A stretch of 64,000 nucleotides of DNA, from assembly GCA_021234155.1 (NCBI GenBank), contig JAJEKV010000011.1:21466677-21530676 (forward strand). Direction: 5' to 3'. A program made the translations under genes and the position numbers. This stretch comes from Isoetes taiwanensis (Eukaryota > Streptophyta > Lycopodiopsida > Isoetales > Isoetaceae). The notes beneath the pieces were generated by a model. That model was given only the letters and a program-made list of their open reading frames with translations. It was not told the DNA's origin and did not search any database. This document shows positions 1 through 49,560 of this stretch, one piece after another. Position 1 is the stretch's first letter. The number at the start of each line of letters is the position of its first letter.

Positions 1-2466
1 CGGTCCCGCCACCTAATGGGTCCATATACCTATTTATGTATGTATATACATATTCATGGCATATATGCAGCATGAGATTAGGGTTTTATCTCTTTGGAGA
101 AAGGATTGTTGCAGAGCATGAAGGTAGGGAGCAATTCTGGGCAGTTTTGGAGCCCGAAATTTGAAGCATCATATCTCGGCAACCCGAGATCCTTTTCAGG
201 TGATTTTTCTTTTGTTGGAAAGGTCTTTAAGTAAGCTTTCCGGAATGGGTCTGATCAAGCCAAAACTCATCCGTATGCAAAAGTTATGACAGAAATAGTG
301 ATGCTGAGTCAGAATTGACTGCACTATGCCTATTCTTCTGCAGTTTGCCTCTTGGAGCTAGAAGACGATCTTTGGAGGCGCAATCAATTACAAGGGGTCC
401 AGAGGTCTATGTGGAAAGAAATTATCAGGTGGGGTTTTGCTTTTGATCAATTGAGGTGTGCTATGAGCTGCCATGATTAGTTTGCACATGATTTTTGCAT
501 GCAAATATGATAGATTATGAATTTGTTGGAGACTCATAAGGCTAGAGAAGAAAATCAATGATTGGAAACATCCCTGTAAGGCTGATTTTAAGTCAAGAAT
601 GGCTGAATATTACATGAAGAGCACTGATTCAGCATGGAAACTTAAAAAAAAAGGCAGAATTAGATTGGATCCGGCGCCGCAAGAGCTCTCCAACGCCATT
701 TTGTGTTCATGTTATGTTTTTGTCATTTTGGTTTTGTGCTTTATTTTGTTGGTCTTGTATTTGCTGCCTTTCTCAATTTATTTGCATGTCCTAGTATGAA
801 GCTAAGTCCTCATAGATGGAATTGGGTTGCATTCGAGCTTAGCAGCAGAGGAGATCGGAGCATGAAAAGTGGCGAGCGAATAATCATAATAGTAAGAATA
901 TGCATTGTTTGATAATTGTCTAACTATGGTAAAATTCTAAGGTTTGGGATAAAGTATCTTTCTTAGCTCATGGAGATGGGGCTAATGCTGAGAAGTAGTC
1001 TAGCACAGATGTAGAGCGTCAACGATCCCTCGGCATCAAGGATTTCAGCATCAAGTTCGCATGTGGATCTTGAAATAGGAATAAGCGGTCATCTGACATC
1101 AAGGATTATTGAGATTGAGACGGGTCCACATTGGTACAAGGAGAGTCATGTGAAGCTTGGGGGTTACTAAATGTGACTATAGCATGAAGTGACTAGTTAG
1201 TCCGAAAAGCGAACTGTAAGTTTTCAAGTTGTTGCATTGTATTTTTATCAAGAGCATCATAGCTAATGGATTCAAAGTATAAACGTTATGGAACGTTGTA
1301 TTCCTCATGGGAAGATGGTTTCGAGGTAAGTTTTGCATTATAGAAGATGTTAGTATCTTTCCTTGATCGAGAACGTATATAGGTATTGAAGCCACATCAA
1401 TGACGGTCGGGGCTCGTAACTTCCTCCACATGTTTGTATTGTGATCATGATCTTCACCAATGAGTTAGCTACTTCGGCATGGTTAGGTTGTATGGGCAAC
1501 CTCGACAAGGGCTAAGAGTATGATCTAGGCACATGTTTAATAAATATTGTAATGAACTTCACATGTCATGGTCTTTGCATTGCTCTCTTTGTTGTCTTGG
1601 TATTTGATTATGTCTATTGGAACCTCCTGGGTCGGGCTTCTAGGTTGGGTGGCCTAGGTTGCTCGGCATGCTCATGTTCATCTGTGATTCTCTGTGGTTC
1701 TTGTGCTCTGTGACACCGGGCGTTAGTTTCTCTGGCGGGGATTGCTACGTCAGTCAACTCTTGTGAAACCCCATGGTAAGAGGTCCTCGGTGCGGGCGTG
1801 GGGTGAGAGGGTATGCGATATCTGAGGTTCACCCCACCACCTGCTAGGGCTTGGAATGTAAGTCGGCTGGGCAACATCTTCGCTAATGGGGGCTGTATGT
1901 AGGCTGGCTGAGCTACCCATTGTCGGGAGTTTGTTTATGATGGTTTGATACTCCGGTTATGTTCTTTGCTCTTGATGTTCATGATGTTTTCTTTATTGTC
2001 ATAGTCTAGCGTTGCACCATAGGTTCTTGTGTCTTTGAATTGTTATATGTTTGCTATCCAAGATTCCGAGTATTTCCATGCATGCAGAGGCAGCCGGGGA
2101 TCCCCACTTAGTCACGAGGACTAACCCCGGTGAGTGCATGTGCAATTGAAAGAGCAAGGCGATGGCACCAAGTATTTGTTGTGGCTCATGGATGGGCAAG
2201 AAGCTTCTAGGATTGAGTTGCTAACATGGATGCTGTAACCATTGGGAATATGGATTCTTTGGATGTTAATGTTATTTGATTATATTGAGATATCAAGTAT
2301 TTGCTCATTGAGTTTTGAGTGTGCAATTTAGCTGTGCAAGAGGAAGATTCAATTCTTCACCATATTCAATTGTTTGTCATACCAACCTAGAATTAGCGTA
2401 GTATTGACAAGATCCCGAGTTGCCTAGAGGGTCAACTCGGCAGGCTCGTCACAATAACCTACTTCA
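1..2466 (+). other. Non-coding DNA upstream of the gypsy gag ORF
   Basis: I find no convincing coding region here. The block at 140-310 reads like the non-coding leader seen inside plant LTR elements, and a comparable leader follows the related LTR at 62130-62450. The stretch at 1600-2460 does not match the 3' LTR at 7913-9557, so it is not the 5' LTR of that element. Either the 5' LTR lies left of the window behind a leader longer than 2.4 kb, or another repeat is nested here. Short ORFs in this stretch look like chance readings. Confidence 0.45.
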
Positions 2467-4335
2467 GTGGGCAACCCCATTGATGAATGCTCAGGAATAC
2501 GGACCTCCACCACCACCTCCACCTCCGGTATTGACGAGGCTCCACAGCCGGAAGGGGAAGAGAATCAAGGAAATGTCAGGGACAGGAAGAAAAAAAGGAG
2601 AAGCAGAAAGAGCCGAACACCATCCAGCTCTAGTGTATCAGACACCCCTGGCACCCAGACCGGTAGCAGTTACGAGGATGAGTCAGATGCATCACAGGGT
2701 GGGAAAAAGAACAAGAAAGCAAATGATTATCAGAAGAAAGTGGACAGTGCCATGAGTAATGTTTGGAAGACAAGGAAGCTTAGTCAGTTTTCAGGCAAAG
2801 ACAGGTCAGGCATGGAAGCAGAGGCTTGGCTTGATGAGATGGAGGAATTTGGCAATTCCTATGGCATGAAAGACAAGGACATAGGCAAGGTTGCATCAGC
2901 CAATCTGATAGGAGCAGCCAGGATATGGTGGAAAGGGTATGCTAAGTCTAATAAGTTGAGACGAAACAACTGCAGATTCAAGACCTTCAGTAAAGCTTTC
3001 CGCAAACATTACGTGCCGAGATCACACATTAGCAGGCAGATCCAGCAATTCTACAGGCTAGACCAGGGGAATCTATCAGTAGCCAAGTACACAGAGGAAT
3101 TTATGAGGTTAAGACTCAATGTGCCCAGGATCACAGAGAGGCAAGCGGTCGAAGGTTACATTGAAGGGCTCAACAGCAACATCAAAAGGTTAGTTCGAGC
3201 AATTAACCCAAGAACAGTCGGGGAGGCCGAAGACAAGGCCTTAAGTTTGGAAGAAGCCCCAGTAACTCCAGGGCAGAAGCAGTTACCCTTCAAAGGTAAG
3301 ATGGCAGGGCAGTATCAGAATAAGCAAGCAGCAAACACGCCAGCCGGAGGCCAACAACAAGGGAAAGCTCAGGGAAAGAACTTTGGAGACCGCAGGCCAC
3401 AGGATGGATCAGGGGGCAGTTCACTCAAGCGCCTTTTAGACAGCATCCCTAAGGAGAAGAGACAGGAGTGCATTGAAAAGAAGTTGTGCTTTAGGTGCTT
3501 CCAGCCAGGGCACAGAACACACAACTGCCCATTCGTCATGCAGGCAGCGTTGGCAGAACTTACAGATTGGGAATCTCCAATCGAAGGTGATGATGAAGAT
3601 GATGACCAACAGGAAGGCCAAGATTTTATAGAAGGTGAGTGCAAAATCTGCGCAGCTCTTGAGTCAGGTGATGTTGAAAATCAATCTACAGTCATCTCGA
3701 CTGAGGGAATCATAGATAGCAGTCCATACCTCGTCTTGATAGATACAGGTAGCTCTCACAACTTTGCCTCTCCTAGGCTTGCTGCCCTAATGAAGAGCAA
3801 GGTCTTGAAGTCAAAGCCAAGGCCAGTTAGCATGGCAAGTGGTGCCATTCGCCACATCAAGGGTAGGAGGATCACGTTCGACATAGACCTTAGTGGAAAC
3901 AAGTGGCCGATGGGGGCAGAAGTCATGGATATTGGAAAGTATGATCTGATAGTAGGAATGGAGTTCCTCAAGCCAGCTAAAGCGATGATTGACTGCGAGC
4001 GCAACGAGATCTCCATGACGGCGCCGGACGGCAATAGATTCATAGTAAAAGGTAAGAAGGTAGCTTCTCCTATGCAGTGCATTTCTATGAAGCAGCTAAG
4101 AAAGAGTATAGAAAGAAACAAGGTGGATTATATCCTGAGGTTAGAGGCAATTGAACCAAGTAAAGAGAAGGGAAGTGACCTGAATGGGAATCAGTTGCCC
4201 AAGCCAGTAGCAAGGCTAATTAGGGAGTTCAATGATGTATTTCCAGATGAAATCCGTCAGCTACCACCTTATAGGGGTGTAGAATCACATTGGCTCCAGA
4301 TGCTAAGCCTACCAGCAAGGCACCTTACAGAATGA
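2467..4335 (+). pseudogene. gag-pro: Ty3/gypsy gag-protease and start of RT
   Basis: This 622-codon reading frame encodes the capsid and nucleocapsid part of the polyprotein followed by the protease. The N-terminus is Ser/Lys-rich and low-complexity (about residues 1-95). The retrotransposon gag domain follows (about 105-270, with IWWKGY and YTEEFMRLR). A CCHC zinc knuckle lies near residue 342 (CFRCFQPGHRTHNC). An aspartic protease active site lies near residue 425 (LIDTGSSHNFAS), with the later protease motif YDLIVGMEFL. The ORF runs into the start of RT (FNDVFPDE) and is lost by a frameshift at about 4288, where the next frame takes over. I chose the ATG at 2467 because the frame is open from there. 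An overlapping reading at 2420 is only a shadow. Confidence 0.9.
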
Positions 4336-4911
4336 ACACCCCAGAGTTGATAGAGCTCAAGAAGCAGCTGCAGGAATTGCTTGACCTTGGATTTATAAGA
4401 GCAAGTGTGTCTCCCTTTGGGGCACCCATACTCTTCGTCAAGAAGAAAGACGAGAGCCTAAGAATGTGTATAGACTATCGCCAGCTTAACAAGCAGACGA
4501 TAAAGAATAAGTATGCTCTGCCAAGGGCAGATGCTTCAAGGAGTGAAAGTTTTCTCTAAGATTGACTTAAGGTCAGGTTATCACCAAATAAGGATAAGGG
4601 AAGAAGATATCCATAAGACCGCCTTTAGAATGCGGTACGGGCATTTCGAGTTTACAGTAATGCCTTTTGGCTTATCGAGTGCCCCGGTAACCTTCATGCG
4701 TCTCATGAACGACATCTTCAGGGAGTTCTTGGACGAGTTTGTCATTGTATTCGTCGACGACATCTTAGTCTACAGCAAGTCAATTGAAGAGCATTGTCAA
4801 CATTTGAAAAGAGTGTTAGAGAAGTTGAGACGACATCGGTTGTATGGAAAGCTCTTCAAATGCCACTTTGCAACAGGTCGAGTGGAGTATTTGGGGCACG
4901 GTAACAGCTGA
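4290..4911 (+). pseudogene. Ty3/gypsy reverse transcriptase, frameshifted
   Basis: Reverse transcriptase is spread over two frames. Positions 4290-4559 carry the fingers region ([25 protein letters not shown]). A small deletion at about 4530-4550 removes the residues that normally join this to the next block and shifts the frame. Positions 4513-4911 continue with [15 protein letters not shown] and the catalytic box FVDDIL, where the two aspartates are kept and the usual tyrosine is phenylalanine. The thumb region LGHGNS ends in a stop where the frame shifts again near 4890. The family assignment is clear and the copy is non-functional. Confidence 0.92.
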
Positions 4912-5590
4912 AGGGATTTCTACAGATCTGTCAAAGATTGAAGCAATAGTTGATTGGCCAACTCCAAGGAACGTGGCAGAAGTGAGAAGTTTTCTCAGTC
5001 TGGCAGGATACTATAAGAAGTTCGTAAAGGACTTCGCTAGGTGGGCATCCCCCTTATCGGACCTCACCAAGAGCAATAAGATAAAGGATTGGGCAAAGTT
5101 TTGGCTTGAGAATGTCCAAGCCTCCTTTGAAAAGCTCAAAAAGGCTCTAACGACAGCCCCAGTCCTTGTCCTCCCAGATCCGAGCAAAGATAAGCTAGTG
5201 GCCACGGATGCGAGCAAGATAGCAACAGGTGCAGTTTTGATGCAAGAGGGAAGGGTAGTCGCCTACGACTCGAAGAAGATGAGCAACCCTGAGCAACGCT
5301 ACCCGACCCATGATCAGGAGTTATTAGCCATTGTCAGGGCATTAAGGATTTGGAGGTATTATTTGTTGAGGAGGAAGTTTCAGTTAGATACTGATCACCA
5401 GAGCCTTCAATATCTTTTCACCCAACTACTCCTCAACCTAAGGCAAAGGAGGTGGATGGAATTCCTTGAGGAATATGATTTCGACATAGTGTATAAGCCC
5501 GACAAGCTTAATGTTGTTGCAGATGCCCTCTCCAGGAGACCATTCGAGACGCGTCTCCAGGAGACCATTCGAGACGAGAACGCATTGTAA
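4844..5590 (+). pseudogene. Ty3/gypsy RT connection and RNase H
   Basis: This frame continues RT ([28 protein letters not shown]) into RNase H. RNase H marks are [14 protein letters not shown], the central glutamate region [25 protein letters not shown], and the C-terminal [15 protein letters not shown]. At about 5535-5580 a tandem duplication of roughly 25 bp (unit around GGAGACCATTCGAGACG) was inserted just after RNase H. It throws the frame into a stop at 5588-5590 and the integrase frame takes over. The duplication resembles the many short tandem duplications elsewhere in the window. Confidence 0.9.
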
Positions 5591-6550
5591 TGCTATATCA
5601 ACTCTTTCGAGTGGGTATGGCAAGAAAATTGAGGAGACATTGCCATCTGATGATGATTTCAAGGAGGTATGGGCAAGCCTCTCTAAGGAGGCTAGAACAG
5701 ATAAAGAACGGGAGGCCTTCAAACATTATAGGAAGGAAGGCAACCTGTTGTATCATAAAGATAAATTGTGTGTGCCCGAATCGTCAGGAGTAAGGAAGTT
5801 AATTCTTCATGACACACACAACAGCCCAATAGCCGGGCACGCAGGATTTATGAAGACGTATTTCAAGATTCGAAGTAGCTATTCCTGGCCAGGAATGAAG
5901 AAACAGATAGCCAGATATATTCGGGAATGCCAGTTGTGCCAGCAGACTAAGGCAGAGCAGCTTCGGATTCCGGGAGCTTTGGAACCTTTGGCAATGCCAA
6001 ATGCAAAGTGGGAAGTAATAAGCATGGATTTTATTACAGGACTTCCTAGGACTCTTCGAGGCAAAGATGCACTAATGGTGGTCGTAGATAAATTATCTAA
6101 GATGGCACACTTCGTGCCTTGCAAAACTACGGACACAGCCTTAGACACTGCCGTTCTATTCGCAAAGGAGATTTTTAGACTCCACGACATGCCTCGAGAG
6201 ATAATATCAGATAGGGATTCTAAGTTCATGAGTGCATTCTGGCAAGATCTTTTTGCCACGATCCAGACCAAGCTCTCGATGAGCATGGCTTACTATCCTC
6301 AGACGGATGGCCAGACGGAGGACGAACCGCATCATCGAAGATATGCTCAGAAGTTATGTATGGAATAAGCAATCCAAGTGGGATGATTTCATCCAACTTG
6401 GTAGAATTCGCCTACAATAGTACGAAGCAGGAGTCATCGCAGATGTCTCCCTTCATGATCAACTACGGGTACCAATGCCTCACCCCGTATACTTGGCACA
6501 ATCCTGTGTCAAAGGTCGAAGTATCCCAGCAAATGCTAGGAGATATGTAG
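5511..6550 (+). pseudogene. Ty3/gypsy integrase, frameshifted
   Basis: The N-terminal zinc-binding region (H-H-C-C) is visible as GHAGFMKTYFKIR followed by CQLCQQTK. The catalytic core shows the first aspartate in SMDFITGLP, the second in SDRDSKFMS, and the glutamate in YYPQTDGQTE, so the D,D,E triad is present in the DNA. The frame breaks right after the glutamate (about 6330) and resumes at 6356-6550 (LVEFAYNSTKQESSQMSPF). A further stop follows at 6548-6550. Downstream GPFKILE and the SLLKRHDP stretch at 6720-6850 belong to the integrase C-terminal domain. Confidence 0.9.
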
Positions 6551-7058
6551 CAGCTGGTGGAAGAAGTAAGGGGGTACCTTTTAGCAGCAAGAAGTCGGTA
6601 GAAGAGTGTAGCCGACAGGCACAGGACCATAAGGGAGTTCAAGGTGGGTGACAAGGTATGGTTGAAGATCAAGGTGAAGCAAGCTAAGCTTCGTATTGGG
6701 AATTGCAAGAAGCTCGCCCCTAGGTGGGCCGGTCCGTTCAAGATCTTGGAGAGAGTGGGTCTCAAGCCTACAAGTTGGATCTTCCGGCGCACCTCAAAGT
6801 TCACAAGGTCTTCCATGTGAGTTTATTGAAAAGGCACGATCCTAACCCTGATGAGGTTCTGGATACTCCAACTTTGTTGGAAATGACTGAAGAGCAAGTT
6901 GAAATTGTGCCTGAATTGCTTCTTGATAAGTCATTCAAGAAGACTTGCCCGTGGAAGACGCGACATGGGTATTGAAGCAGGATTTGGAGAAACAATACCC
7001 AGAATTCATGAAGGAGTTTGATGGGCGAGTCGTCTCCGAGCTCGTCGACGCCGACTAG
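6551..7058 (+). pseudogene. Integrase C-terminus and chromodomain remnant
   Basis: The 6724-6975 frame contains SAYKLDLP-like and VHKVFHVSLLKRHDP sequence, typical of the gypsy integrase C-terminal domain. It is followed by a region where chromoviruses carry a chromodomain. The chromodomain is recognisable but split: one frame ends near 6975 and another continues with DATWVLKQDLEKQYPEF and ends at a stop about 7056-7058. A chromodomain would place the element among chromoviruses, whose chromodomain directs integration to marked chromatin. The call rests on position and the tail motif, since the central aromatic cage cannot be read cleanly. Confidence 0.65.
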
Positions 7059-7899
7059 CCAGGAGGTTAGCTTAGTATGTTTCTTAGTTAGCCTCAGCTC
7101 TGGCATATGTATTCTAGTTAGTAGAGTGCATGTGCCAGAATCTTGGAATGTGTAAGCGATGATGAGATACGCCTTTAAGGCATTCTCTAGGCCAACACGC
7201 ACCAAGAGGTGCGCATGACCAGTAGGGTCATGCGAGAGAGGAAGTAAGGCATGGTTGGCGATGATGGGACATATGTCGGATGCTCTCTATGCCACGATGC
7301 AGGGCTCGCGCACCTGACCATAGGGGGGTCATGGTGAAGGTCAAAGTGATCATGTGCGATGATGGGATCGTGAGACGTTCCCTAGCTTGAAACCCTTGGG
7401 GCATGAGGCACTGGGAGTACTCAACACCGGATAATCGAGTACAAGGTAGCACTTGATCATGGGCAATGATAGGAGCATCTTAAATGTTCCTTAAGCTCAA
7501 ATCCTTAGGGGCCATGATCGGGTGCAAGGTAGTAACCTTGAGCTGGTAGTTCGGCTCAAAGGAGGTAGGTAAGGGGGGTGGTCCCCTGAAACCACATTTA
7601 TTAATTTAACTAATGTAATGTGCTACTCGTGCAGGGCGAGCATAGGGGAGCACCGACGGGAGCACATTACGTGGAGGCGGGGAAGTATAATTTAGACTTA
7701 GAAATTATGAACCCTAATGTTATGTGCTAATGTTTTGACTTACTATAGCATTACTGTTGTTAAGGCTGTATAATTTTGTATAAGTATAAATATAGCCCAT
7801 ATTATATGTTGATTGAATAATAGAAATTGCATGTATCTTGTTTTTGCAGGAAAGTGTAGTGTAGTTACCTTAGCGTAATGCTGAGGATAGCATTATCCT
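7059..7899 (+). other. 3' internal non-coding region of gypsy element
   Basis: No coding region is visible between the end of pol and the polypurine tract. The stretch contains loosely repeated blocks around 'gcgatgatggga' and 'catgaggcac/catgatcggg' at about 7215-7520. These look like degenerate tandem repeats of 60-120 bp, which are common in the 3' untranslated part of plant gypsy elements. Confidence 0.6.
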
Positions 7900-7912
7900 A
7901 AGGGGGGGAGAA
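7900..7912 (+). promoter_or_regulatory. Polypurine tract
   Basis: AAGGGGGGGAGAA lies immediately before the TGTGACG start of the LTR. This is the expected primer site for plus-strand DNA synthesis and fixes the internal/LTR boundary at 7912/7913. Confidence 0.9.
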
Positions 7913-9557
7913 TGTGACGTTCCAGGGGAATATACGCTATAAATACGTATATTCCTGGACCCGTCACTATACAAGTCTACCCTTGTAGTCTTGTATACCT
8001 TAGGAAGTGGCAATGGGTGCACATCTAAGTTAAATGCTTAACTTAGATAACCTTAGGATAAGGCCCATTTCCACATGGCCTTATCCCATTGGGCAACCGC
8101 CACACGGCCCCCACCCCATTGGTGCCACGTGGCATCCCATGTGGACCCTAACTTATATTAGCACAAACCCTAACCCTAGACCTCTTTTCCTGACCCTAGC
8201 ACCCTGAGACTCATCTACGCACTCGAAACTCTGTTTCGAGCACCGTTTGTTGTGGCATAGGCTAGTGCAGCAGCCCCCGGAGAGTGGATTCGATCTTGGA
8301 GCAAGTGCAGCTTCGATCAATTCGAAGACCATGGAGACACCAGGGTTTGGAGGGAGTGCTTCTGGAGCAGGTATGTGGAGTAGTGCTCTTGGTAGATCAT
8401 CTGGAAGTTAGCACTCCAGATGGGTTAATATTTCGTAGCTAGAGTAGAGCCATCCTAGAACCCTTATTCAATGTCTTAAACCCTAATCAAGGAACCCTAA
8501 CTGTAAGTTAGATGTGTATGATTAGGTTAAAATGTTCTTACTATGATTATCATGATATGATACTATTTGATGTTGGTTGATCATGTTTGCTCCTCTTGTA
8601 TTGGGAAAGGGGGTAGAGACCTAGGGCCATATGTAGCATGCTCCTAGTTTAGATCCCTTAGTTCCTATTAGTTGCGGCCTGTGCATAAGAGCCCGCCGGG
8701 CTATTGGGACTATGATGCGACTCAACACTACACAAGGGGGCTAGAGGCAATACGGATGGGGGATCCCTGCTGAGCGTGGCTACTGGGGATCCCATAGCGG
8801 GCTAGGCCTATGGTCGGTCACTTTGTGTGGGCCGGGCATGGGTCCGACACCTCTTGGAGCAATGGTGTTGCCCTGCCTCTCAAGAGTTGCAAGTGTTGGC
8901 TTGGCTCCTGTTTTGGGGGATTAAGTCGGGTACGAATCGTGTGTCGCCACGATTCTCTAGCCGCCCGTGGAACCTCTAGACTCCGGGAAGGGGAGATGCA
9001 ACCCTTCCTGCCTCGATGGACTGGGGAGATGCAACCTGGAGTAGTCCCGATGGGTGATACCATAGGATTGCGTATCCGGAAGGCTAGAGTCATGCCAGAG
9101 CCCGATCTAGCTCATTCTGCAAAGTATGCACAGGAGGGACGGATGGAGTGGTCAACCCTAGCCATTGTCTATAGTCAGCCCCGCCATTGTTATGACTCGG
9201 TCTGCTCTATCTTGAGGCCTAGCCAGTCAGTCACCTTCCTTATGAGTCGAAGCCATGGGTAGGAGCTCTCATGTTTTATGGCATATGATTATCTTCTTTG
9301 TAGTTGTGGATATCTGGATGTGCTACCCTTCGAGGTAGTATGATGTATTGTTATTGCTAGTTCTGATGTTGTTATGCTTCCGTTGTGATAGGAGCCCATA
9401 GGGGGAAGGGCACGCAAGACACCTTCGTGTCCCCTTCCCGCACTAGAGTCATCTCAGAGTGCGAGATAGACGGAGGGCCCGTGCGGTCGAGGACCGGATG
9501 GGGGATTTCCTGCGGAGTGTACGACCGAGTGCCGTATATTTAGCAGGGAGCGTCACA
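7913..9557 (+). repeat. 3' LTR of gypsy element
   Basis: The LTR is 1645 bp. It starts TGTGACGTTCC and ends GAGCGTCACA, so the terminal TG...CA sits in a short inverted repeat (TGTGACG/CGTCACA). A truncated copy with the same start lies at 9765-10136 and a diverged full-length relative at 60571-62117. The 'accctaaccctag' stretch near 8168 is telomere-like but is shared by the other copy, so it is part of the LTR and not a telomere remnant. An ORF at 8810-9262 is judged spurious. Confidence 0.9.
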
Positions 9558-9764
9558 AGCCCAGTGCATAGGTCCTGGATTACTCAAGAATTGACTCAGA
9601 AAACTGACCGCGTGAGCAATGTCAGGTCTTGTACATATAGCGACTTGAGAAAGTTGTCAATCCGTTGATACCATGCTCGTGGAGACTGCTTGAGGCCATA
9701 TAAAGACTTATGTAACTTGCATACTAAAGTCTCTTGTCCAGGTTGAACATAACCTTCGGGTTGT
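9558..9764 (-). pseudogene. Ty1/copia reverse transcriptase scrap
   Basis: Read on the minus strand, this 207-bp piece encodes PEGYVQPGQETLVCKLHKSL then YGLKQSPRAWYQRIDNF, the conserved copia RT block. After an abrupt junction near 9636 another frame gives RPDIAHAVSFLSQFLSN, a copia motif normally more than 100 residues further on. An internal deletion therefore joined the two blocks and removed the catalytic YVDD region. The scrap sits between two LTRs of the gypsy family: the 3' LTR ends at 9557 and a truncated LTR starts at 9765, so the gypsy elements inserted into copia DNA. Confidence 0.88.
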
Positions 9765-10136
9765 TGTGACGTTCCAGGGAAATATACGCCATAAATACGT
9801 ATATTTCCAGGACCGTCACTATACAAGTCTATCTTCATAGCCTTGTATACCATAGATTGTGGCACTTGGGGGGCATGACTAAGTTATTCATATAACTTAG
9901 CTAACCTTAGGTTAAGACCATTTCCACGTGGCCTTAACCTATTGGGCACCCGCCACACGGACTTACCCTATTGGAGCCACATGGCATAACATGTGAACCC
10001 TAACCTATAAAGGCCTAAACCCTAACCCTAGGCCTCTTTTCTGGCTCCAACAGTCTGGGAACCTTCTTCGCGCTCGAAACTCCGTTTCGAGAACCGTCTG
10101 CTGTGGCACAGCATAGCGTGGCAGCCCCCAGAGCGT
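9765..10136 (+). repeat. Truncated LTR of the same gypsy family
   Basis: This stretch matches the first ~370 bp of the LTR at 7913 (same TGTGACGTTCC start, same 'cgtatattt' block, same 'cgaaactccgtttcgag' block). It stops matching at about 10136, where the DNA of the ParB-methyltransferase locus begins. The remaining ~1.27 kb of the LTR is not found on the far side of that locus (16060-16200), so simple insertion into the LTR is not supported. Confidence 0.85.
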
Positions 10137-10648
10137 GAGCATATCAGCAGGAGTAAGCACGATTTAATTAATTAGAGAATTTCGGAATTCTCGTTTAGCA
10201 TGAAATAGGTTCTTGGTTGTCTATAAAACACCGTAAATGGTTGCAGCAGAGTAAAAGTTGACGTTTTTTCCGCTGTTTTTTGGTCACAACCAGCGATGTA
10301 TCCGACTTTGACATGTATAAGGCTATCCCAAGCTCCTTTGTGAGTAAGAGCGGTCCACAAGAAAGAGTGAAAATACTCAGCAGGATCGCCACGGCGAAGA
10401 TTTGAAGCTGCCTAACTAGCCCATGGATGTAATATCACAATTCCGTTAAGCTCTACACATGGATAAAAAGAAATGAAATTGATAATGAGGATCGCGATGG
10501 CGAACATTCTGAGCTGTCGTGTCAAGGAAAGTTTAGACAAAAAATAAAACTGAAATAGTAAGAAAACTCAAAGATTGGAAAACTTCAAAGCATTGTAATT
10601 TTTATTCCTCAAACATTTTCAATGTACATTACTTTGCCATAGGGGCAG
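10137..10648. other. 3' flank of ParB-methyltransferase locus with two GC motifs
   Basis: This non-coding stretch holds two degenerate copies of the motif arrayed in intron 1 of the neighbouring gene: 'caggatcgccacggcgaag' at about 10382 and 'gaggatcgcgatggcgaac' at about 10484. Each is followed by a GAGCTG-like or AAGCTG end resembling the intron units. A perfect 'gaatttcggaattc'-type palindrome lies at about 10175-10190. No polyadenylation signal or gene was identified with confidence. Confidence 0.5.
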
Positions 10649-13600
10649 AAATTAGTCCATCTGGGTTTCCGATACTGACTCAGGTACAACACCTATCTCA
10701 GCAGCTATCCTAGCTACATGGTCCTGGCCCCTTTGTAGAAGATCTTCTGTGTCCATCTCAGTATAGCCTGTTACTTCTGGGATTTCTACAGACATGGCCT
10801 GCGCAAGGAGTTGGACATGTGGATCCGGTCCTTCAGTCTCAGTATCCATGGGGTTGCCTTCGACAGATGCGCCACTCTGCTCAGCACAGGCGATATCGGG
10901 TGCATGGAAGAGTTTGGTTTTTTTCTTTGCTGGAACCTGATGCTCTTGTGTACCTGATGGCTCACCCTCTTGAGCGGCAGGGTCCACGTCCATGCCTACA
11001 TATTGAAACTTCGACCACTTTGTCAAGAAAGGCATGTAGGCATCAAATGTTTTGTTTAAAGCCCCCAATTTTTGAAACACGGGCTCTAGCGCAATAATAC
11101 CTTTCTCAGTAGCCTCCAGAAGTCTTTTCGTTTCCTGCATTCGTTCCTCATAGCTTTTCTCATCCATTTGATCCAAGATTGTATCAATGTTAGATATATC
11201 TGTTCTCTGGGTTATGTTTAAATTGATCGCCTGGGGATCATTCACAGGCTCTGCCTTATCCTCTTCAAATGTCTCCCCAAATACTGTCGACCGTTTTTTT
11301 CGAGCTTATCCGGAAAGCCCCCCTCGAAATCGGCATACTTTACCCCGGCTTTTGAAAGCAATACTTTTCTTTCCCCCGCAGTAAAGGCGACACGGAAGCG
11401 ATTACCTGGCGAGAAGAAATCAAGAACACAACCATCCTTGGGCACAAGCTTGTCAACTAGGTAGTAAGCATATGATGTCTTCAACTGGCACTTGAGCACG
11501 TGGTCACCTTCCATTCCGACAAACTTGTACCTGGGTTTACCCGTGAAATAAGTCTGCCATTTTTTCTTCATTTTCTCATCAGTATCTTCGTCACCACCGG
11601 CGGGCATTGGTGGCAAGGGCGTTGTTCTTTGGTGCAGTGCTCACCTGTGTCAAACGAAGCTCCAGCTCCGGCATTATCGCGTTGACCCTGGAGTCGCTTC
11701 TGTTAATGCACATATGGGTGATGTAATACTGATATTCCTTCACCCTTTTCTTCTTCACCCATCCTGGCTCATCATATGTACCTACAGAAATATGGGACCC
11801 GCCTTGAATCTGTTTCTGGATGTACAAGCAATCTGGCAAGTTCGCAGACCGCATCAGAATCACAAGGTAATAAATGTTAGCAGTTGTCATGCTGGATATT
11901 CTTGTGAAGAGTTCCATGTATTTCTTGCACGTCCATAATGCAGAGAATCCTCTAATGTCTATGAACACCATAGTTGCATTCTCGGATCTTTGGAGTGGAG
12001 TGGGAATCCCTTCCTTCGTTCTAAAGATGTACAACATTTTTCTTCTCCTTGATTTTGATAGCCTCTTCAGGTTTCAAAATCGATCTAATGGGTTCTAGAA
12101 ATGCAACGGGAAAATTACCCACAACATGTTCCTTATTATAATTGGCTTTCACGTACTCTGTATCGGAATCAGATATATCCAGAATCCGCTGTTCCGTGAA
12201 AGCAGGAAATTCAGAAAGCAATTCTTCCCAAAAAGTGTATTCTTTCTGGAGCGGCGTGGAAGCGTATCACAAAATCTCTTTCCGCATGAAGCTCAGGCTT
12301 CTAATATCAATGGCGCGCTGCTGGCAATTAAACCTGCCATGATATCCGCTTTGCACCTTAACGTATGTCTTTCCTTCCAAAATCTCATCGAGAAGCTGAG
12401 AAACCTCTGCATTAGACATGCCTCGAAGGTATCTTAACCAGGTTTTGTTGAAGAAGTCCTTCGAGGGCTTATCAGGAAAATCTCCATGCTCGTCCTGGAT
12501 CTTTTTTGTTGACCCATCCATTTGGCCACTTCCATTAACTTTCTCGAACACCGGCTCCTCCATAAAAATAAATTGCTTTCGTCCTTTAGCTCCTTCACCT
12601 TCAACGTTGTGGTAGCTATCTCGTGGAAGTCCTACAAAACAAATGGTCGTGAAATCGCGGTGACGCGATGTCATTGAGCTGGGCTAATAAAAATACCTTC
12701 CATGCTGAGGTGGTGGCAGTGCCAATGGGACCTTGAGGAGGACATCCATACGCTTTATGTTGATGCCGCAGCTGTTGAAGCTTCTCTAACAATGGCTCTC
12801 TGTATACAGTGTTAGCGATGACTTCATTGCTTTGAATGCTCAACTCAATATATTCTCTATCGTCAAGTTTCCATTAAGCACTCTTGTTCTTCTCCTCGCG
12901 TAGGCTTTAGCAAACTCCGCCATTTGTTCCGGCTCTCCAACAACACCGCGAAAGCAACCGAAGCCGCACATATCGTGGTTACCAGATATTATCCAAAATT
13001 TCTTGCCCTTCAAGTCAGCCACTGTATTCCACGTGATCTTTTTCCTGAAATAATGTGCACTTGTAAGTTAGGAAGCCACAAACCAGAAATCATTAACAAT
13101 AACAATCACCTGGTAATGGGGTCGAAGGGGACAACATCGGCCGGTGTGAGCACCTCCGTAGGATACGTCTTGAAACTCTTCACGAGAGTCTGCACGTGGT
13201 CGGTTGAACGCATTCGATGCGTGAGGTTAGCAGGAGCTGGCTCACAATCAAATATGGAGACCTTCATAAACCAGTTCACACCAAGCGGATAGAACCGTTT
13301 GAATTGTTCAAGCTTCTGTGCAGTTTGTTCTGCCAATTTGCGTTCTTCCTCAGGATTGAATTTGAGCTCGGTCGGCAGTTCAGAAGCAAGAGAAAATGCT
13401 AAGCTCTTGGACGATGGAACACCTGAGACGGAAGGGGGGGTGTTGGAAGAAGAAGGTTCTCCGATATCAGAAGTATTGAGTTTGCGGAGGCTGATTGTGA
13501 ACTTCGATATCTTGTTTGGGACAGTAGTATCTTTCGGCATAATAGGGGGAGCACAAATAGCCAAAGGCTGAGAAGGATCTATAATAGCAGAAGGTTGGGC

Positions 13601-14676
13601 AGTGGAAACAGGCTCCACAGACAGGGCTCTGGGCTGGGCAGAGTCTTCTGCTAGAGATACGGGCTTCACATGTTTTTTCTTCGCCTGAGCTCTTAACCAG
13701 TTAGTGTCCATTACAGAAGGCATCTTGTCATCTCGTTTAGCTTTCAATGCAATGTTGGGTGGTTTCTTATCTGTCTGCAAATCTTTTCTGCATGTCGAGA
13801 AGCCAGACAATATATCCCTATTGCCAGTTATTCCGGACAGAGACAGAGATTCATAGGACTGCAGTTCCCAGCCGTATCCTTTCGCACTGGTTGGAACATT
13901 CTTTCCAGTGGCGGGCTTGTTTAACTTGCTAGCTGTCATGAGCGAGGGATCATAGTTTGTCCATTTAAGGACGTACTCAACGAACTGCAAATTTTGTGTG
14001 TCCTCCACGCTGCATATAATAGCGTCTTGGACATTGTTTTTTGTTCCTTCCCACATAGCAATTGCAATTCCTATCTGCTGTATGTCATCGGCTTTTTTGC
14101 CAGTCCTGAGGAACAAGCAGAGGTCTTTACGTCGGTCGCCTTTCGTCTGTGGAATTGCTTGTGCAATTTCAATGCACCACTTTCTTTCATTGGAAGGTGT
14201 GATGATCTTAGAAGGCTCAACGTCTGGACCGCGAAACAAATCCAGAGCTGCAAGCAAGTTGTGAATTCAGTATACCCTAATGTACACATTCTTCCGTAAA
14301 GTCAAGAGCATCGCGGGCGCGATCTTCATCAGAGCTCACGACGATCGCGACCGCGATCTTCTTGAGTGCTGTACAAGATCGCGGCCGCACACGTCGTGAG
14401 CTCTCATGAAGATCGCGCCCGCGATGTAGTTGAGCACTCAACAGGATCGCGGCCGCGATGCTACCGAGCAGTCAGCAGGATCGCGGACGCGATCCGTCCG
14501 AGCACTCAGCAGGATCGCAGCCGCGATCCTATTGAGTTCCAGACCTTCTCATGACTACATTACGAAAAGCTGAACAATAGAATTAAACATGCATTATCGA
14601 AAGAAATCGCGTCCGCGATCTTCTTGAGCTGAGGGGGTTAGAACTAACCTTCTCTGAGATGGGCTTTTGGTGCCAT
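10649..14676 (-). pseudogene. ParB/Srx-like and DNA methyltransferase-like fusion gene, decayed
   Basis: Four exons can be modelled: 14649-14676 (ATG, nine codons), 13110-14247, 12697-13044 and 12631-10649. Junctions are GT-AG and the first two keep frame, giving about 1160 residues. Residues ~10-310 are unrecognised, with a Pro/Ser-rich linker. A ParB/sulfiredoxin-like region follows (PANLTHRMRSTDHVQTLVKS, then KKFWIISGNHDMCGF, where GNH replaces the usual GQH/GNR). The C-terminal half follows beta-class N4/N6 DNA methyltransferase order: a degenerate motif IV (FIDIRGFSALW for D/N/S-PP-Y/F), YYLVILM, KEYQYYITH, then a motif X/I region (KTSYAYYLVDKL, CVLDFFSPGNRF for VLDxFxGxG). Key catalytic residues are therefore altered. 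Lesions: frameshifts near 12862, 12570, 12040, 11628 and 11297 (A7 run), and an in-frame TGA at 12264-12266. The exon structure is seen; the domain calls are inferred from motifs. Confidence 0.6.
14312..14620. repeat. Array of 16-bp palindromes in intron 1
   Basis: Eight copies of a palindrome with consensus GATCGCGNCCGCGATC lie at about 14312, 14345, 14377, 14410, 14443, 14479, 14512 and 14605. The first seven are spaced 32-36 bp apart. Between them runs a partly conserved linker, roughly TGAGCACTCAACAG. The array sits inside the 401-bp first intron (14248-14648) of the ParB-methyltransferase-like gene. Regular spacing plus dyad symmetry suggests binding sites for a dimeric DNA-binding protein. 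Each palindrome contains GATC at its ends and several CpG. Confidence 0.85.
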
Positions 14677-16160
14677 GGATTGCCGACGCCGAAAGAATTC
14701 GAAAAATGGCTTCTGTACGCCTGCGGCGGAAGGCGCTCGGAGGAGGTGAAGGCGCGAGAATCGCGGAAGGCGCTCGTCGAAGGCGCTGGGCGGAAGAAGC
14801 AGAAATTCTCAGAATCGCGAAATTAAATACTGCTATAACAGACGGAATAATTTAATACGGCACGTGCGGGACCTGCCGCGCCATAAATGCCTGCCATTAA
14901 TACGGCCGGCATTCATAATTACACACCATTAATGCAGCCGCCCTTATTTATGGAGACCCAACAACTTTATTGTAAATGTGGCATTTTCCGGACAAGAGGT
15001 ACTTTTTGTCCTGGACCTCTAAATTCAAAATGTGTACGTAAAGTGAGAGATATAACCTTCCCCCCGTGCCAACAGACCGCGCAATAAAAGCACCACGGAA
15101 CCAAAATGTACACGCCTCTGGAGCGCGGTTGAAGGACTGAAAAAGACAACTGAATTTAAATTTTGAACCCGAATTTCGCGCTCCGTCTTGAAGGCGGGAT
15201 TGCCATTTTGTAATCGAGCAGGGTGTTCTTCTCGTGTGGGCGCTCGTTCTGTTCCTCGAGGCGCTCGATCTGTTCTTCAGGGCTCTAGGTCTCATCTTGA
15301 AGGCGCTCGCCTAACTTAAGCTACCGGGGTACAAAATCCTAATGCCTTACTGTTTATCCAGCTAGAAATTATCCAACTCGGGACTGATTTTCGATTTGTT
15401 GTAAATGCGTGGTTATAATAGTGTTTTCACAACCATAATGTAATTCACTGTATTGACACCATCTCTTTCTTGGTATATGTTGTTCACGGATCTGTATAAT
15501 CTGGTAAGCGAGGCCCAATTCAATTGTTTATTTCTCGGACTAATTGATAGTGAGGGGATATCACAGTAACATAATGGTTCTGCTAATGGTTCTGCTCCCA
15601 TGTGTACAATTCACGACAGATCTCCATTGTAATTAACAGAAAGGCTTAGAATCGTTGTGGAAATAACAGTTGCAATTAGTATTCACGTAAACATTTGATT
15701 TGCGAGAGTTACTCAAATATCTCTTTGTTGCTCAGTTGGACCTGTTCGGATCTCTGCCTAAAAGAATCGCGACTGCGTTCATTCGGAGCATAGCAGTTAT
15801 AACGCGACGCAATATTACATCGAGTCTATCGCGATTGCGATCTTGTCGAGGTAAGTCCAGTAGGAAAGTGTTTTTTCAATGGTCAGAGAAAATAGTTTGA
15901 GCTGAAGAAGGTTAGTTAGATGAGAAAGATTCTAGGTAGATTTGAAGGATTCAAGTTGTCCGAAGGATCGCACTCGCGATATCCCCGACCCCTCTGTGTC
16001 TTGTGCTTGTTTGATTCATACCTATGTGGTCAAGCGGATCGCCCTCGCGATCTTCCTGAGGTTTTATGTCGTCCCTTGTGGCCTTTAGTAATGTGCATTG
16101 TTCATAGGGTTTGCATGCCTGTTCATAGGGTTTGTATCAGTTACCATGCATGTTAAAAAA
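14677..16160. other. 5' flank of ParB-methyltransferase gene, repeat-rich
   Basis: Upstream of the ATG (minus strand) there is no convincing gene. At 14725-14790 and 15180-15310 the octamer GGCGCTCG recurs with small variations at least six times. Four more degenerate copies of the palindrome occur at about 15770, 15824, 15964 and 16037, the last followed by 'cttcctgag' like the intron linker. A short direct repeat 'catagggtttg' occurs at about 16103 and 16124. The minus-strand ORF at 14948-15295 overlaps this and has no recognisable domain. Confidence 0.5.
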
Positions 16161-39035: not shown

Positions 39036-39775
39036 CTACTCGGCAGAATTGGAACAAGCTCTAAACACAGTCAATGCATTTTCAGTCTGGCAGGCCTTTT
39101 CAATCGCCCGCCTGCATCTCTGCATCTCTTCATACTCATACAATCCGATTTTCAACTCCCACCTGCACCACAGGCAGATTTCTATCGCCATAATGGATCC
39201 TGGGCTACTGCCCTAACCAACCCTGAGCTAACCCTCTTCCTCGACACCAAAGCTGTAGGATTTGAATTTCATCTTAACGATTATGCCAACTGCCATCGAC
39301 CATAGCCGATCTCGGAACCCCTGCCTCCAAGCCTGCCCCATTGGGATCCGTTCCCACCTCTGCTGAAAAAAGAAAGGAACGTGCATTCGTATCCTTCCAT
39401 TCTGAAACCATGCATAGAAACCAGAAAAAAAACCATCCCAGAGACGATTTTGGAATGCTGCTTTGACTAGCCAACAAGCAGCTCAAATCACTCAAAAAAT
39501 ACAATTTAACTGCGTTTTCGCATACAATACAGGGGCGAAATCTTGGCCAAAACATGCCAGAAATACCGCCCCTCAAATACAAAACGAAATAATTAGATAT
39601 TTAGAAGGTTATTAGTGGTGTATATTTTATGGTTTAAATTTGTGTCTCTCGCTCATTTTTAGCCCTGGAGTCACAAATAGTGTCATAAAATAGTGTCATA
39701 TATGGAAGTCTTATTGCAACTATGGTGGAAAAAGGGCCTCAGTAGTTGCATAAATTTTCGAAGTTTTGCAACGTA

Positions 39776-40492
39776 ATGGCGCCTTCCGGCATCATTCTAA
39801 GCTGTTTTGGAAGAAAAAAGCAGCAGCAGAAGGAGCCACAAACATCAAACAGGTTGAATAAGCTATGTCGGTGCATTGGAAAGATCCCTACCCAATCTTC
39901 CGACCCATCGGCCTCAGCAAGTATTGATTCAGCAAATAATGAATTATCGGCCCCAGCAGATGATCCGGCACACTTGATTCATCCATACGGCCCAGAAATT
40001 GTCGCCAACAGAGAAAATTCTGTTATAAGACTTCCAAATCCGAGAGGCTTTCCAAGATTCACAGACCCAGAAATTGCAAGTCTATTATCAAGCCAAATCT
40101 GGAGAGTGCTGGGCAAAAATGTTCCGAATGAATTGGGAATTATAAGATCTACGCACTTCAATTTCCGAAATTCATTCCTTCGGCTTTTTTACATGGCTGG
40201 TCTTGTTCCACCGGAGAGAGAGAGGGGATTTCGCGCTGTATTATTCGATGCAAATAGAATGACCTGGGCTGCAAGGCTCCGGAATTTGCCGCCTCGAGGA
40301 ATTGGGGTGGATTATGAGGATTTTGCAATCCACTACAGTCTCTTTGCGCAGGATTATGTGTATCTTTTGGAGACTGAGAATCCACACAAGATGATGCTGG
40401 TGTTCATGCGAAGGAATTCTATGGCTAATTCTTTAGCAGCTTGGCTGGTGCCTTGCTTCGAAGTTGGGTTTCCTTCGTTTGCTCCTCCTTAA
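39776..40492 (+). CDS. Unknown plant protein, copy 2, intact ORF
   Basis: An open frame of 238 codons starts at the ATG at 39776 (MAPSGIILSCFGRKK) and ends with SFAPP. The same start is conserved in copy 1, which supports it. The N-terminus is basic (KKQQQKEPQTS) and could suggest nuclear targeting, though that is a guess. A Ser/Ala linker follows (residues ~50-70) and a globular C-terminal part begins at HLIHPYGPEIVANRENSVIR. RAVLFDANRMTWAARLRN and FAIHYSLFAQDYVYLLE have a spacing vaguely like a B3 domain; this is unproven. There is no signal peptide or membrane segment. The upstream region was displaced by a 5.4-kb insertion ending 38 bp before the ATG, so this copy has lost its ancestral promoter even though its frame is intact. 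Confidence 0.7.
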   Translation: MAPSGIILSCFGRKKQQQKEPQTSNRLNKLCRCIGKIPTQSSDPSASASIDSANNELSAPADDPAHLIHPYGPEIVANRENSVIRLPNPRGFPRFTDPEIASLLSSQIWRVLGKNVPNELGIIRSTHFNFRNSFLRLFYMAGLVPPERERGFRAVLFDANRMTWAARLRNLPPRGIGVDYEDFAIHYSLFAQDYVYLLETENPHKMMLVFMRRNSMANSLAAWLVPCFEVGFPSFAPP

Positions 40493-46723: not shown

Positions 46724-49560
46724 CATAGCACTGCTGTATCTGATGATGGCTCAGTGTTTTACTGGGGCTCAGCAGATCCACATCCTCATGCCCATCAGCT
46801 ATCTCCTATTTTTTTCTTCCACTTCACATTTGAGGTTGTTGTGGCAAGTGTAACTTGAATATGTCTCATTTTATTATGCTATTCATATATATAAGATTTG
46901 ACTATTTCTTTGTATGGTTGAAATTTTATTGACTGGCGGGAAATGGTCTAAACAACTCGGCAATTCACAAATACCAAATGCATCTTTCATTTTAGGAGTT
47001 TTTCAATAATTTTACATTTTCCAGATGTACGTCCATGAAGATCCTTTCTCATGTGCCCTTTGCTTAAATTACTATTAAAACTTATGAGGTTGGCATTGAG
47101 AATTGAAAGATGAGTTGGCATGGAGGCTTTGAATTACATGTTCGTGTTATCTCGAATATAGTTGTAGGAAATAAGCCAATATTAATTTCAAAAATTATGG
47201 CTGTGCAATACCTTAAGAAATGCTTATGCTGAGGCCCATTATTCTAGTAGTAATCATTGCCAGCTTTTGGATTATGTGCTTTTTATCCTATACATTAGCC
47301 TGTATTTCTAGTTTCTTTTTATGCAATTCTCGAGCTTTACATGGTCTTTTCTATTGGCTTGCATTTCCAGTTGTTAGCGTTCAGTAGGCATAAAATAGTA
47401 TCGGTCGCTGCTGGGAAGTATAGAACTGTTGTTGCCACGAATACAGGAGATATATACATTTGGGATGCCGAGAAGTGCATAAAAGAATTTCTTCCCATTC
47501 CTGCTCGTTTACATGGTTTAGAACATATCGCATGCTTGTCAGTGGGGGAAACATATTCGCTGGCAGTATCATGTTTATACATGCCATCCTATCTGGCGAA
47601 ACCTATGGTTGAAGTACCTTCAATGATCAATCCAGTTCATGGGTTAGATAATGACGATGACAATGATGAAATACACAATCTTAGTTTTTCACCAGGATCA
47701 GAAAGAAGCAACATGGATGTCTCTGTGCCTCCTATTCAAAGCTTAAAGGACATGTGTCAAAGAGTTATTGCGGAAACAATTGTTGAACCTAGTAATGCAC
47801 TGCAGCTACTTGAAGTTTCAGATGCACTAGATGCGGATCATTTGAGAAAATATTGTGAGGTACATTTTGTGATTAAATATGCATATGTATCTTTTTCTAT
47901 TCTGTTATATAATAGTACTGTTAGATCAAGCTCTCATTTAATTGCTCTTTGAAAGAGTTCACATTTTTTACTTCTCATCCTGATTTTTGTATTTCCTGAT
48001 GTTCTCGCAGGATATGGTTCTTCGGAACTTACCTTATATTTTAACGACATCAGTTACAATGTTTGGACATTTAAGGTCATTGGTACTGGCAGCATTGGAA
48101 AGTAGCGGGTGTGTTGCCTCTTCTGAGCCATGGAGTCATAGACGTCTACCGACTCCAAGTGCACTTCTCTTGCCATTTGAAACTCCAAGGGTCCATCCCC
48201 ATGATTTTGACCCAGGGGTTTCACCTACTATAAAGGGGATACGCCACGTGCGTTAATGGGGTCAGCAAAAAACCCTCCGTATATGCCTTGTCCAACCTTC
48301 TAAACACCCCTTCCCGTATACATATTACATTGGATCCACTCCAGAAGACCCCATAGCCAAGCCCCTATCCGTATGTATACATACAGTTTAGGATAAGAAA
48401 AAATCCACCCCATTCACTCACATGTTATATACGCCTTAAACTATGTGACATCCCCGGGGACTTTGAAGCAGTTGGAATCATGTATGATGGCCAAGTTGCA
48501 TCAGAAAAATTCCTACATGAAGATCTGGGTGATAAAGCTGTTGTGAAGCATGTTAGGGCCCTTAAGAAGAAGTTACAACACATTGAAACTTTGGAATTTA
48601 AATTAACTGAGGGTCATTTCCTTGACGATCAACAACTTGCAAAGCTTCAAACAAAAGTGATAATTGTGAAGGAGCTTGAGATGCTCGAGTCTAAAAGTGT
48701 GCCACCACTAAGGCAGGAGGACAGTGTTGACAACTCCCGAAGGGAACAGGTGGGAGGAATAAATGGCTCAGGGCGCCAGCGCATAACAACAAGAAGAAAG
48801 GTTAAAGGCAAGGGCACTCAAAAGACTCAAGAAAGTGAATATAAGAAATCTAAGCCTGAGCAAGCATCGCCCTTGCCACAAAAGAATGAGAAGACTGAAG
48901 ACTATCAGGACTTGCATGATAATTATGTAGGCTGGGCGGATGTCCTATAGACATGGGGCCATCTTCGACAATTAAGAGCAAAGTACCAATAAGCTTCCAT
49001 AATTGAAGCAAGTTGTACTTTCAAATATTCATAGTTTTAATGGGTTTGCATTTTTTTGAAATAATGTTTCATCTTCTCATCCATGAGGAGGACCCTATAT
49101 GGTCGTAATGAGTTCAAGCTGTCAATTGCACATCACGGGAGTTTGGCTGCCATTTCATTCACGAAGACAAGTTCTTCATCTTGTGTTGATGCTTTCGAAA
49201 AGCGGTCACGAGTCCTAGCGGTTGTCAAAAGTATGCAAAATCAAAAGGCGAGAAGGGTGGGCTTTCTATGTTTATGAATGGGACTTTAGATGCTTGTCCA
49301 CAACCCCTTGAGCATAAAGTCTCACCTCAATTGTTGTGGCCTGAAGGTCTGCTGAGGTGGATTGAGAATGTCAAGGGGATCGTCATCACTTCTTGAAATC
49401 CAGAGTTCGCAAATTATAGAATCTAACAACCAGGTGGCATTTCATGCAAGGATAAAGAAAAGCTTGTTGGTCATGGAGACAAGGAAATGGAGAAGGTTGA
49501 TGCAAGGCTGCGGACCCCCTTAAGCAAATTTCTTCGTTCATCTCCTATTGCAATGGCACC
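46724..49560 (+). pseudogene. RCC1 and C-terminal part of the ankyrin-RCC1 gene
   Basis: Exons in order: 46724-46808 (HSTAVSDDGSVFYWGSADPH, an RCC1 blade); about 47371-47859 (AAGKYRTVVATNTGDIYIWD, HIACLSVGETYSLAV, then DALDADHLRKYCE before a GAG/GTACAT donor); 48011-~48200 (DMVLRNLPYILTTSV, SSEPWSHRRLPTP); 48480-48950 (VRALKKKLQHIETLE, LDDQQLAKLQTK, then a basic Lys-rich stretch); and about 49240-49560 (GGLSMFMNGTLDACP, KFLRSSPIAMAPPK). These match the order in plant ankyrin-RCC1 proteins of the AT3G03790 type. Reading frames break at ~48200 and after 48950, and ~250 bp at 48200-48450 do not look coding. With the ankyrin half 5.4 kb away and damaged, I call it a pseudogene, although conservation is good. 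Confidence 0.8.

Follow-up and report, generated by a model that had tools for sequence, protein, structure and literature searches.

A decayed accessory gene in the Isoetes window

The window analysed here is a stretch of 64,000 nucleotides from Isoetes taiwanensis (contig JAJEKV010000011.1, forward-strand positions 21,466,677 to 21,530,676). At 10652–14676 on its minus strand lies a gene of four exons and three introns, with GT-AG borders at each intron. This gene is a decayed copy of the accessory gene of a two-gene DNA transposon, and its predicted protein contains a ParB-like part followed by a part resembling DNA methyltransferases. The features of the gene and of the surrounding transposon remnant are arranged as follows:

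10155–16102, minus strand: transposon remnant, with its 3′ terminus at 10155 (..AATTAATTAAATCGTGCTT)
14649–14676, minus strand: exon 1, starting MAPKAHLRE..
14248–14648, minus strand: intron 1, carrying seven palindromic ATCGCGNNCGCGAT iterons (at most 1 mismatch), mostly at a 34-bp pitch
13110–14247, minus strand: exon 2, with a conserved N-terminal region, a Pro/Ser linker and the beginning of the ParB-like part
12697–13044, minus strand: exon 3, with the remainder of the ParB-like part, including the GNH box
12960–13004, minus strand: GNH box (KKFWIISGNHDMCGF), decayed, with SGNHDMCGF in the window and SGNHSICAAQLL in relatives
10652–12631, minus strand: exon 4, with a middle region, the methyltransferase-like part and a C-terminal tail; its frame is broken in the window copy
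11933–11965, minus strand: position of motif IV, FIDIRGFSALW instead of (D/S/N)PP(Y/F), with FIDIRGF itself at 11945–11965
11392–11481, minus strand: motif X-like helix and then a motif I-like block (KTSYAYYLVDKL..CVLDFFSPGNRF); relatives have CVLDFFSAGTASRVAL.QGK

The window copy is broken, and its spliced frame reaches the first stop after 456 codons. The intact counterpart of its exon 4 is P0003 in the copy L019. An earlier interpretation made from the letters of the window (the sequence-only reading) had proposed a minus-strand gene with in-frame GT-AG introns, and it was correct in coordinates, strand and splice sites. The peptides it quoted are all present where it placed them, but the GNH box and motif I stand in the window copy in decayed forms, where relatives have SGNHSICAAQLL and DFFSAGTASRVAL.

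The element is a DNA transposon of about 10.3 kb

A DNA search of the 1.66-Gb host genome revealed at least 36 loci of this repeat, the window locus included, each matching over at least 2.5 kb at 84–100% identity. The count is a lower bound, with 36 of 1349 candidates scored. We retrieved 18 of the 35 other loci with their flanks, and the surveys of copies cover the window and these 18. Because all 36 scored candidates match over at least 2.5 kb, and because relatives at 54–68% protein identity retain long open frames, the multi-copy family is more than chance. The mobile, intron-bearing family suspected from the sequence is borne out as a multi-copy transposon gene.

The 3′ end of the repeat falls at the base equivalent to window 10155 in 14 of the 18 retrieved copies. 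It lies elsewhere in L013, and in three copies it was not located. Upstream, the homology of the window copy stops at 16099–16102, because this copy is without the 5′ half that bears the opposite-strand gene; other copies continue further. Five copies were extended by 10 kb upstream to seek the 5′ end, and in two of them, C1105 and C918, both ends were found. The complete element at C1105 measures 10285 bp, is flanked by the target duplication TAAG/TAAG and has terminal inverted repeats matching at 23 of 25 terminal bases. At C918 the element measures 10376 bp, with the target duplication TAAT/TAAT and a match at 21 of 25 terminal bases. The element is a DNA transposon of about 10.3 kb with inverted repeats of about 25 bp and 4-bp target duplications. 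The fixed 3′ end and truncated 5′ ends had raised a LINE or Helitron identity, which was rejected once the inverted repeats and target duplications were found.

The opposite-strand gene, P0001, carries DUF7869 (PF25273, E=3.6e-37) together with QLDNC and GHTHDD stretches, and is probably the transposase. P0002, a more upstream frame on the opposite strand, did not itself match any Pfam family significantly and is presumably an earlier exon of the DUF7869 gene. The hallmarks of a DNA transposon of the inverted-repeat type are all found here, namely inverted repeats, target duplication and, with the role that we infer for the DUF7869 gene, a transposase. The search for DUF7869 gave 150 scored matches among 9903 candidates in the host genome; the 14 prokaryote genomes serving as controls had none. 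We notice that DUF7869 genes are very numerous in the host genome, a number of them in open frames longer than 500 amino acids. Their abundance points to several, perhaps young, families of such transposons.

Both complete elements show a Sola-type 4-bp target duplication. Sola transposons make 4-bp target duplications, which makes a Sola-type element plausible. As two reports describe, they also have terminal inverted repeats, some exceed 15 kb, and they occur in the moss Physcomitrella (PMC10741241, PMC3627910). The likeness to this superfamily concerns the 4-bp duplications and the inverted repeats.

Intact relatives and selection on the accessory protein

The gene structure is shared widely among the close copies. 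All six splice marks were located in 18 of the 19 copies, the exception being L022, and 14 of these 18 have strict GT-AG borders at the three introns. L019 is the sole copy of the 19 that reads through to the natural stop, giving a protein of 1157 amino acids. By searching the genome with exon 4 of L019, we obtained 75 matches from the 67 scored of 5859 candidates, ranging down to 55% identity except for one short piece at 48%. Five full-length exon 4 matches are free of stops (C1105, C908, C1041, C1019, C1067). The C1067 locus, L032, has an unbroken reading of 1154 amino acids from exon 2 onward, 61% identical to L019.

Between L019 and L032 the synonymous sites are saturated, and the ratio of nonsynonymous to synonymous differences per site (pN/pS) is 0.32 overall. 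By region, it is 0.21 in the ParB-like part and 0.32 in the methylase-like part. Judged by these substitution patterns, the accessory protein is kept by purifying selection. Beyond the host genome, no relatives were found in a large protein database (5.8 billion proteins; 5074 and 7997 candidates scored) or in phages, and scans of IMG/VR and GTDB contigs with two short peptide patterns each found none.

Palindromic iterons lie in the non-coding parts of the element

The seven ATCGCGNNCGCGAT palindromes in intron 1 of the window copy, mostly 34 bp apart, far exceed the null, in which 500 first-order Markov simulations gave a mean of 0.13 and a maximum of 2. GATC occurs at least once in each of the seven. 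The 64-kb window has 12 GATCGCG/CGCGATC half-sites, every one of them inside the element (10490–16046).

The same arrangement is observed across copies. Intron 1 contains between 1 and 10 iterons (at most 2 mismatches) in all 18 copies with a delimited intron 1, the window included, and 13 of those 18 also have one where intron 3 lies. In the diverged loci L032, L033 and L034 the intron 3 site persists with 0, 2 and 0 mismatches. At the same threshold of 2 mismatches, the complete elements hold 7 palindromes (C1105) and 14 (C918). They sit shortly before the opposite-strand frames begin (element positions 4393–4826), in introns 1 and 3 and beyond the stop codon of the accessory gene; C918 also has one in exon 2. 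None occurs in the 4.3 kb next to the 5′ end of either element, where that end's inverted repeat and the DUF7869 frame are found. The flanks of C1105 and C918 hold no palindrome in 9616 and 9523 bp (about 19 kb), and one half-site lies beside C1105. The element thus has element-specific motif arrays in its non-coding parts, as do transposons with VANC-type anti-silencing proteins.

The protein resembles ParB-methylase fusions in layout

The ParB-like part reads IFDCEPAPANLTHR..DHVQTL..SF, then KK(F/Y)xIISGNHSIxAAQ, and resembles the phage arrangement N-P-R..I..S...G..IxGHxR. SGNHSICAAQ is present in 12 of the 19 copies, and L032 has SGNHSIFAAQ. The G-[NHE]-[HR] box is colinear with the ParB order, yet the likeness does not rise above shuffles.

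In the C-terminal part, FID[FIM]R, a helix with K-T-S-Y and [VI][LI]DFFSAGTASRVALxQGK follow each other in the beta-class order IV-X-I. The distance from the motif X Lys to the motif I Asp is 20 residues in the transposon family and 21 in the phage phiNJ3. This is the motif order that the sequence-only reading had named, and its near-equal X-to-I spacing to phiNJ3 agrees with it. In beta-class enzymes, the PPY part of motif IV contacts the target base. In the four subfamily members that were aligned, FID[FIM]R[GS] stands in place of DPPY, and the motif I block, DFFSAGTAS, is invariant, with one Gly kept and the GxG of FxGxG gone. The suspicion that the whole family had lost DPPY accordingly holds for all four aligned members, with FxGxG lost as well, and we rejected a loss specific to the window copy. 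Among the close copies, FIDxR was found in 15 of 19; in the other four this pattern, the only one sought, was absent from every frame.

For reference, we aligned 11 phage ParB-methylases: phiNJ3, FP_Epona and nine others drawn from 442 phage records that match the phiNJ3 protein. Ten phage loci were retrieved for this alignment and nine used, with TPWB-09 (L060) left out; of 15 phage loci retrieved earlier, L049 and L050 alone were used. Pfam was run on phiNJ3 and FP_Epona alone among the 11 proteins. The phage loci L036, L037, L039 and L043 were tested and gave no ParB match. Among 18 region-by-target comparisons with hhalign, the lowest E (0.036) belongs to the methylase part, which aligns with motif I in register. 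Column shuffles did as well as the real methylase part in 9 of 300 cases (local) and 6 of 300 (global).

A series of results weighs against this domain assignment. No significant ParB or methyltransferase match was found in Pfam, PHROGs, NCBIfam, PDB sequences or the 5.8-billion-protein database. PF02195 (ParB_N) did not match the intact paralogues and gave 0 matches in the host genome at E<=1, and PF01555, the beta-class N6/N4 methyltransferase family, had no significant match to the window copy or the intact paralogues. For the ParB-like region, 147 of 300 and 246 of 300 hhalign shuffles scored at least as high as the real sequence, and the ParB profile matched the first 320 residues of the protein, taken as a control, at E 0.067. 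The motif I match has a probability of just 1.4%. Tested against the full phage profile, the methylase part was equalled by 14 of 300 shuffles and outscored by the reversed alignment (29.65 vs 20.91). By hmmsearch, the phage-derived ParB and methylase profiles score the family within its shuffles (1334 and 1446 of 2000 shuffles yielded a score). Furthermore, PF00211, a nucleotide cyclase family, matched the FIDIRGF stretch of the window below threshold (E=0.017).

We take FIDIRGFSALW (window 11933–11965) to resemble the first metal-binding stretch of class III nucleotide cyclases. A cyclase reading of DIRGF was rejected: the match is sub-threshold and is not reported for P0003 (E<=1) or for L033 and L034 (E<=10). 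Among the other weak matches, L033 matched PF16595 (E=0.012), and the two-member profile matched a cytochrome c construct at E=0.006 with no single stretch passing. The PF02195 miss is weak negative evidence, because phiNJ3 and FP_Epona, which are genuine phage fusions, likewise fail to reach the ParB_N cut-off.

The profile searches that the sequence-only reading had named as its check thus gave no significant ParB or methyltransferase match, even with intact paralogues. Its fusion family stands as intron-bearing and mobile and in its motif order, but the identity of the domains is without a significant profile match. The case for the ancestry is suggestive and short of proof, the shuffle tests lending weak support to the methylase part (2–5%) and none to the ParB part. 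The cyclase match and the near-equal N-terminal control reduce our confidence in the ancestry and in the whole mechanism. The main outside support for a ParB and methylase reading is a published algal architecture (PMC12477816). Judging from motifs and their order, we consider a ParB/methylase ancestry of the accessory protein somewhat probable.

Neighbouring features of the window

Elsewhere in the window, at 2458–6368 on the plus strand, lie the coding parts of a Ty3/Gypsy-type long terminal repeat retrotransposon: gag, aspartyl protease, reverse transcriptase RNase H, integrase H2C2 and rve. A minus-strand fragment with KSLYGLKQSPRAWYQRI is located at 9596–9883, near the 3′ end of the element; we take it to be a piece of a Copia-type reverse transcriptase. 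Two plus-strand frames, 39746–40492 (248 amino acids) and 47299–47952 (217 amino acids), have no Pfam match at E<=0.001. In the copy L027 (C1025), a polyprotein that is presumably Copia-like occupies 5784–8659, shortly upstream of the start of homology at 9311. Some 5′ truncations of copies may be due to nested retrotransposons.

Comparison with known systems

Transposon-borne ParB-methylase proteins have been published for algae, with their function merely proposed in the available text (PMC12477816, citing its refs 50 and 51). There, the Ectocarpus element Sola1-1_Ec32 encodes, opposite its transposase, a protein of 1104 amino acids with ParB-like and N4/N6 methylase domains, which is predicted to make N4-methylcytosine (4mC) or N6-methyladenine (6mA) (PMC12477816). 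By that description, the Isoetes element is alike in being a DNA transposon of at least 10 kb with a gene opposite the transposase, a protein of similar length (1104 vs 1157 amino acids), and ParB-like and methylase-like parts. In contrast, motif IV is lost from the Isoetes family, judging by its four aligned members, and profile searches recognise neither domain. The algal element is 21.5 kb long and that of Isoetes about 10.3 kb, and iterons are described here for the Isoetes element. In position and length the Isoetes gene agrees with the published description of an accessory gene of the Sola1-1_Ec32 type; its two domains are putative.

The phage ParB-N6_N4 fusions (phiNJ3, FP_Epona and nine others) share with the Isoetes protein the domain order, the order IV-X-I and the X-to-I spacing. 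They differ in motif IV, with DPPY kept in 11 of 11 phage proteins and FIDxR in the Isoetes family. On the two phage proteins tested, Pfam N6_N4_Mtase is strong and ParB_N marginal, whereas neither matches the Isoetes family. By approximate region bounds, the Isoetes protein has about 330 extra residues at the N-terminus, about 190 at the C-terminus and about 200 between the two parts.

In Arabidopsis, VANC21 binds a short motif that its own transposon family has accumulated as tandem arrays outside the coding sequence, VANC introns included, and methylation is lost (PMC5735166). The VANC genes of VANDAL transposons and the Isoetes gene are alike in encoding a transposon accessory protein and in having element-specific motif arrays in non-coding parts that include introns of the accessory gene. 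The motifs differ: that of VANC21 is YAGTATTAY, in one orientation, and that of Isoetes is a 14-bp CpG-rich palindrome. No Pfam family link between VANC and the Isoetes protein was found; the likeness is one of layout, with the Isoetes side known from its sequence. Among the literature matches listed, judged by titles and the starts of abstracts, no land-plant case, dead-motif version or ATCGCGNNCGCGAT-type iterons appeared.

A proposed role for the accessory protein and its alternatives

We propose that the accessory protein would bind the element's own ATCGCGNNCGCGAT palindromes through its ParB-like part, acting at the iterons as a reader and not a writer, without methylation. Sitting at the start of each gene, it would counter host silencing of the CpG-rich control regions, or tune the expression of both. 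Its likeliest effect would resemble that of the Arabidopsis VANC proteins on VANDAL transposons, and we take it to be a factor for self-recognition, probably an anti-silencing one. The parallel in layout with VANC is close, and from it we infer the function in the Isoetes element. The step from the iterons to the accessory protein is the weakest of the chain. Also against the chain is L019, whose frame is unbroken and which has only one intron 1 iteron, with up to ten in decayed copies. As a whole, the chain from a decayed transposon accessory gene to an iteron-binding, non-methylating protein with an anti-silencing or regulatory role is tentative, a little short of an even chance. Rather unlikely, in our view, is a bolder version, in which a ParB-guided methyltransferase turned from writer into catalytically dead reader would spread on parS-like CGCG palindromes in introns and gene starts and shield them from cytosine methylation, VANC-like yet of separate, prokaryote-derived origin.

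The ancestry itself may be questioned. A transposon-specific DNA-binding or structural protein without ParB or methyltransferase ancestry, with GNH and LDFFSAGT as chance look-alikes, is doubtful yet has to be taken seriously: all profile searches are negative, the ParB part behaves like its shuffles, both catalytic motifs are absent, and the protein also draws weak matches to unrelated families (PF00211, PF16595, the cytochrome c construct). Chance fits less well with two look-alikes standing in the order of the bacterial fusions, with IV-X-I and near-equal X-to-I spacing, or with a methylase part at 2–3% in two of three shuffle tests. The brown-algal counterpart, as described, has both domains, the opposite-strand position and a similar length (PMC12477816). 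Conversely, the protein might still have methyltransferase activity despite its unusual motif IV and methylate the element's own GATC/CGCG-rich palindromes to mark or protect them. Purifying selection on the methylase-like part, the retained Asp of motif IV (FIDxR), the invariant motif I block and the GATC in each of the seven window intron 1 palindromes would suit such an enzyme, as would the 4mC or 6mA predicted for its algal relative (PMC12477816). The replacement of PPY by [FIM]R[GS] in four of four aligned members and the loss of the motif I GxG make this quite improbable.

A further alternative leaves the accessory protein with another role in transposition and assigns the iterons to the DUF7869 transposase or a host factor. 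The iterons adjoin the opposite-strand frames as well as the accessory gene, and an opposite-strand frame has a weak helix-turn-helix match (PF13384, E=0.017, below cut-off). We hold this to be unlikely, as the densest array is in intron 1 of the accessory gene, where VANC target motifs also occur (PMC5735166), and both complete elements are free of iterons over their initial 4.3 kb, the part with the DUF7869 frame and the 5′ inverted repeat. Three spliced introns would also suit a host gene captured by the transposon (Pack-type). Each of the 18 close copies retrieved is embedded in the transposon repeat, and 14 share one 3′ terminus; the 75 matches from 67 scored candidates extend down to about 55% identity; and purifying selection acts between diverged subfamilies. 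Judged from the scored candidates, capture is very improbable on these grounds.

The Isoetes element provides a large, partly intact family that combines a lost catalytic motif with a clear candidate DNA target. How ParB-methylase-like proteins help transposons thereby becomes open to direct testing by binding assays and methylation maps. If the proposal is true, the family may represent a second origin for sequence-specific anti-silencing.

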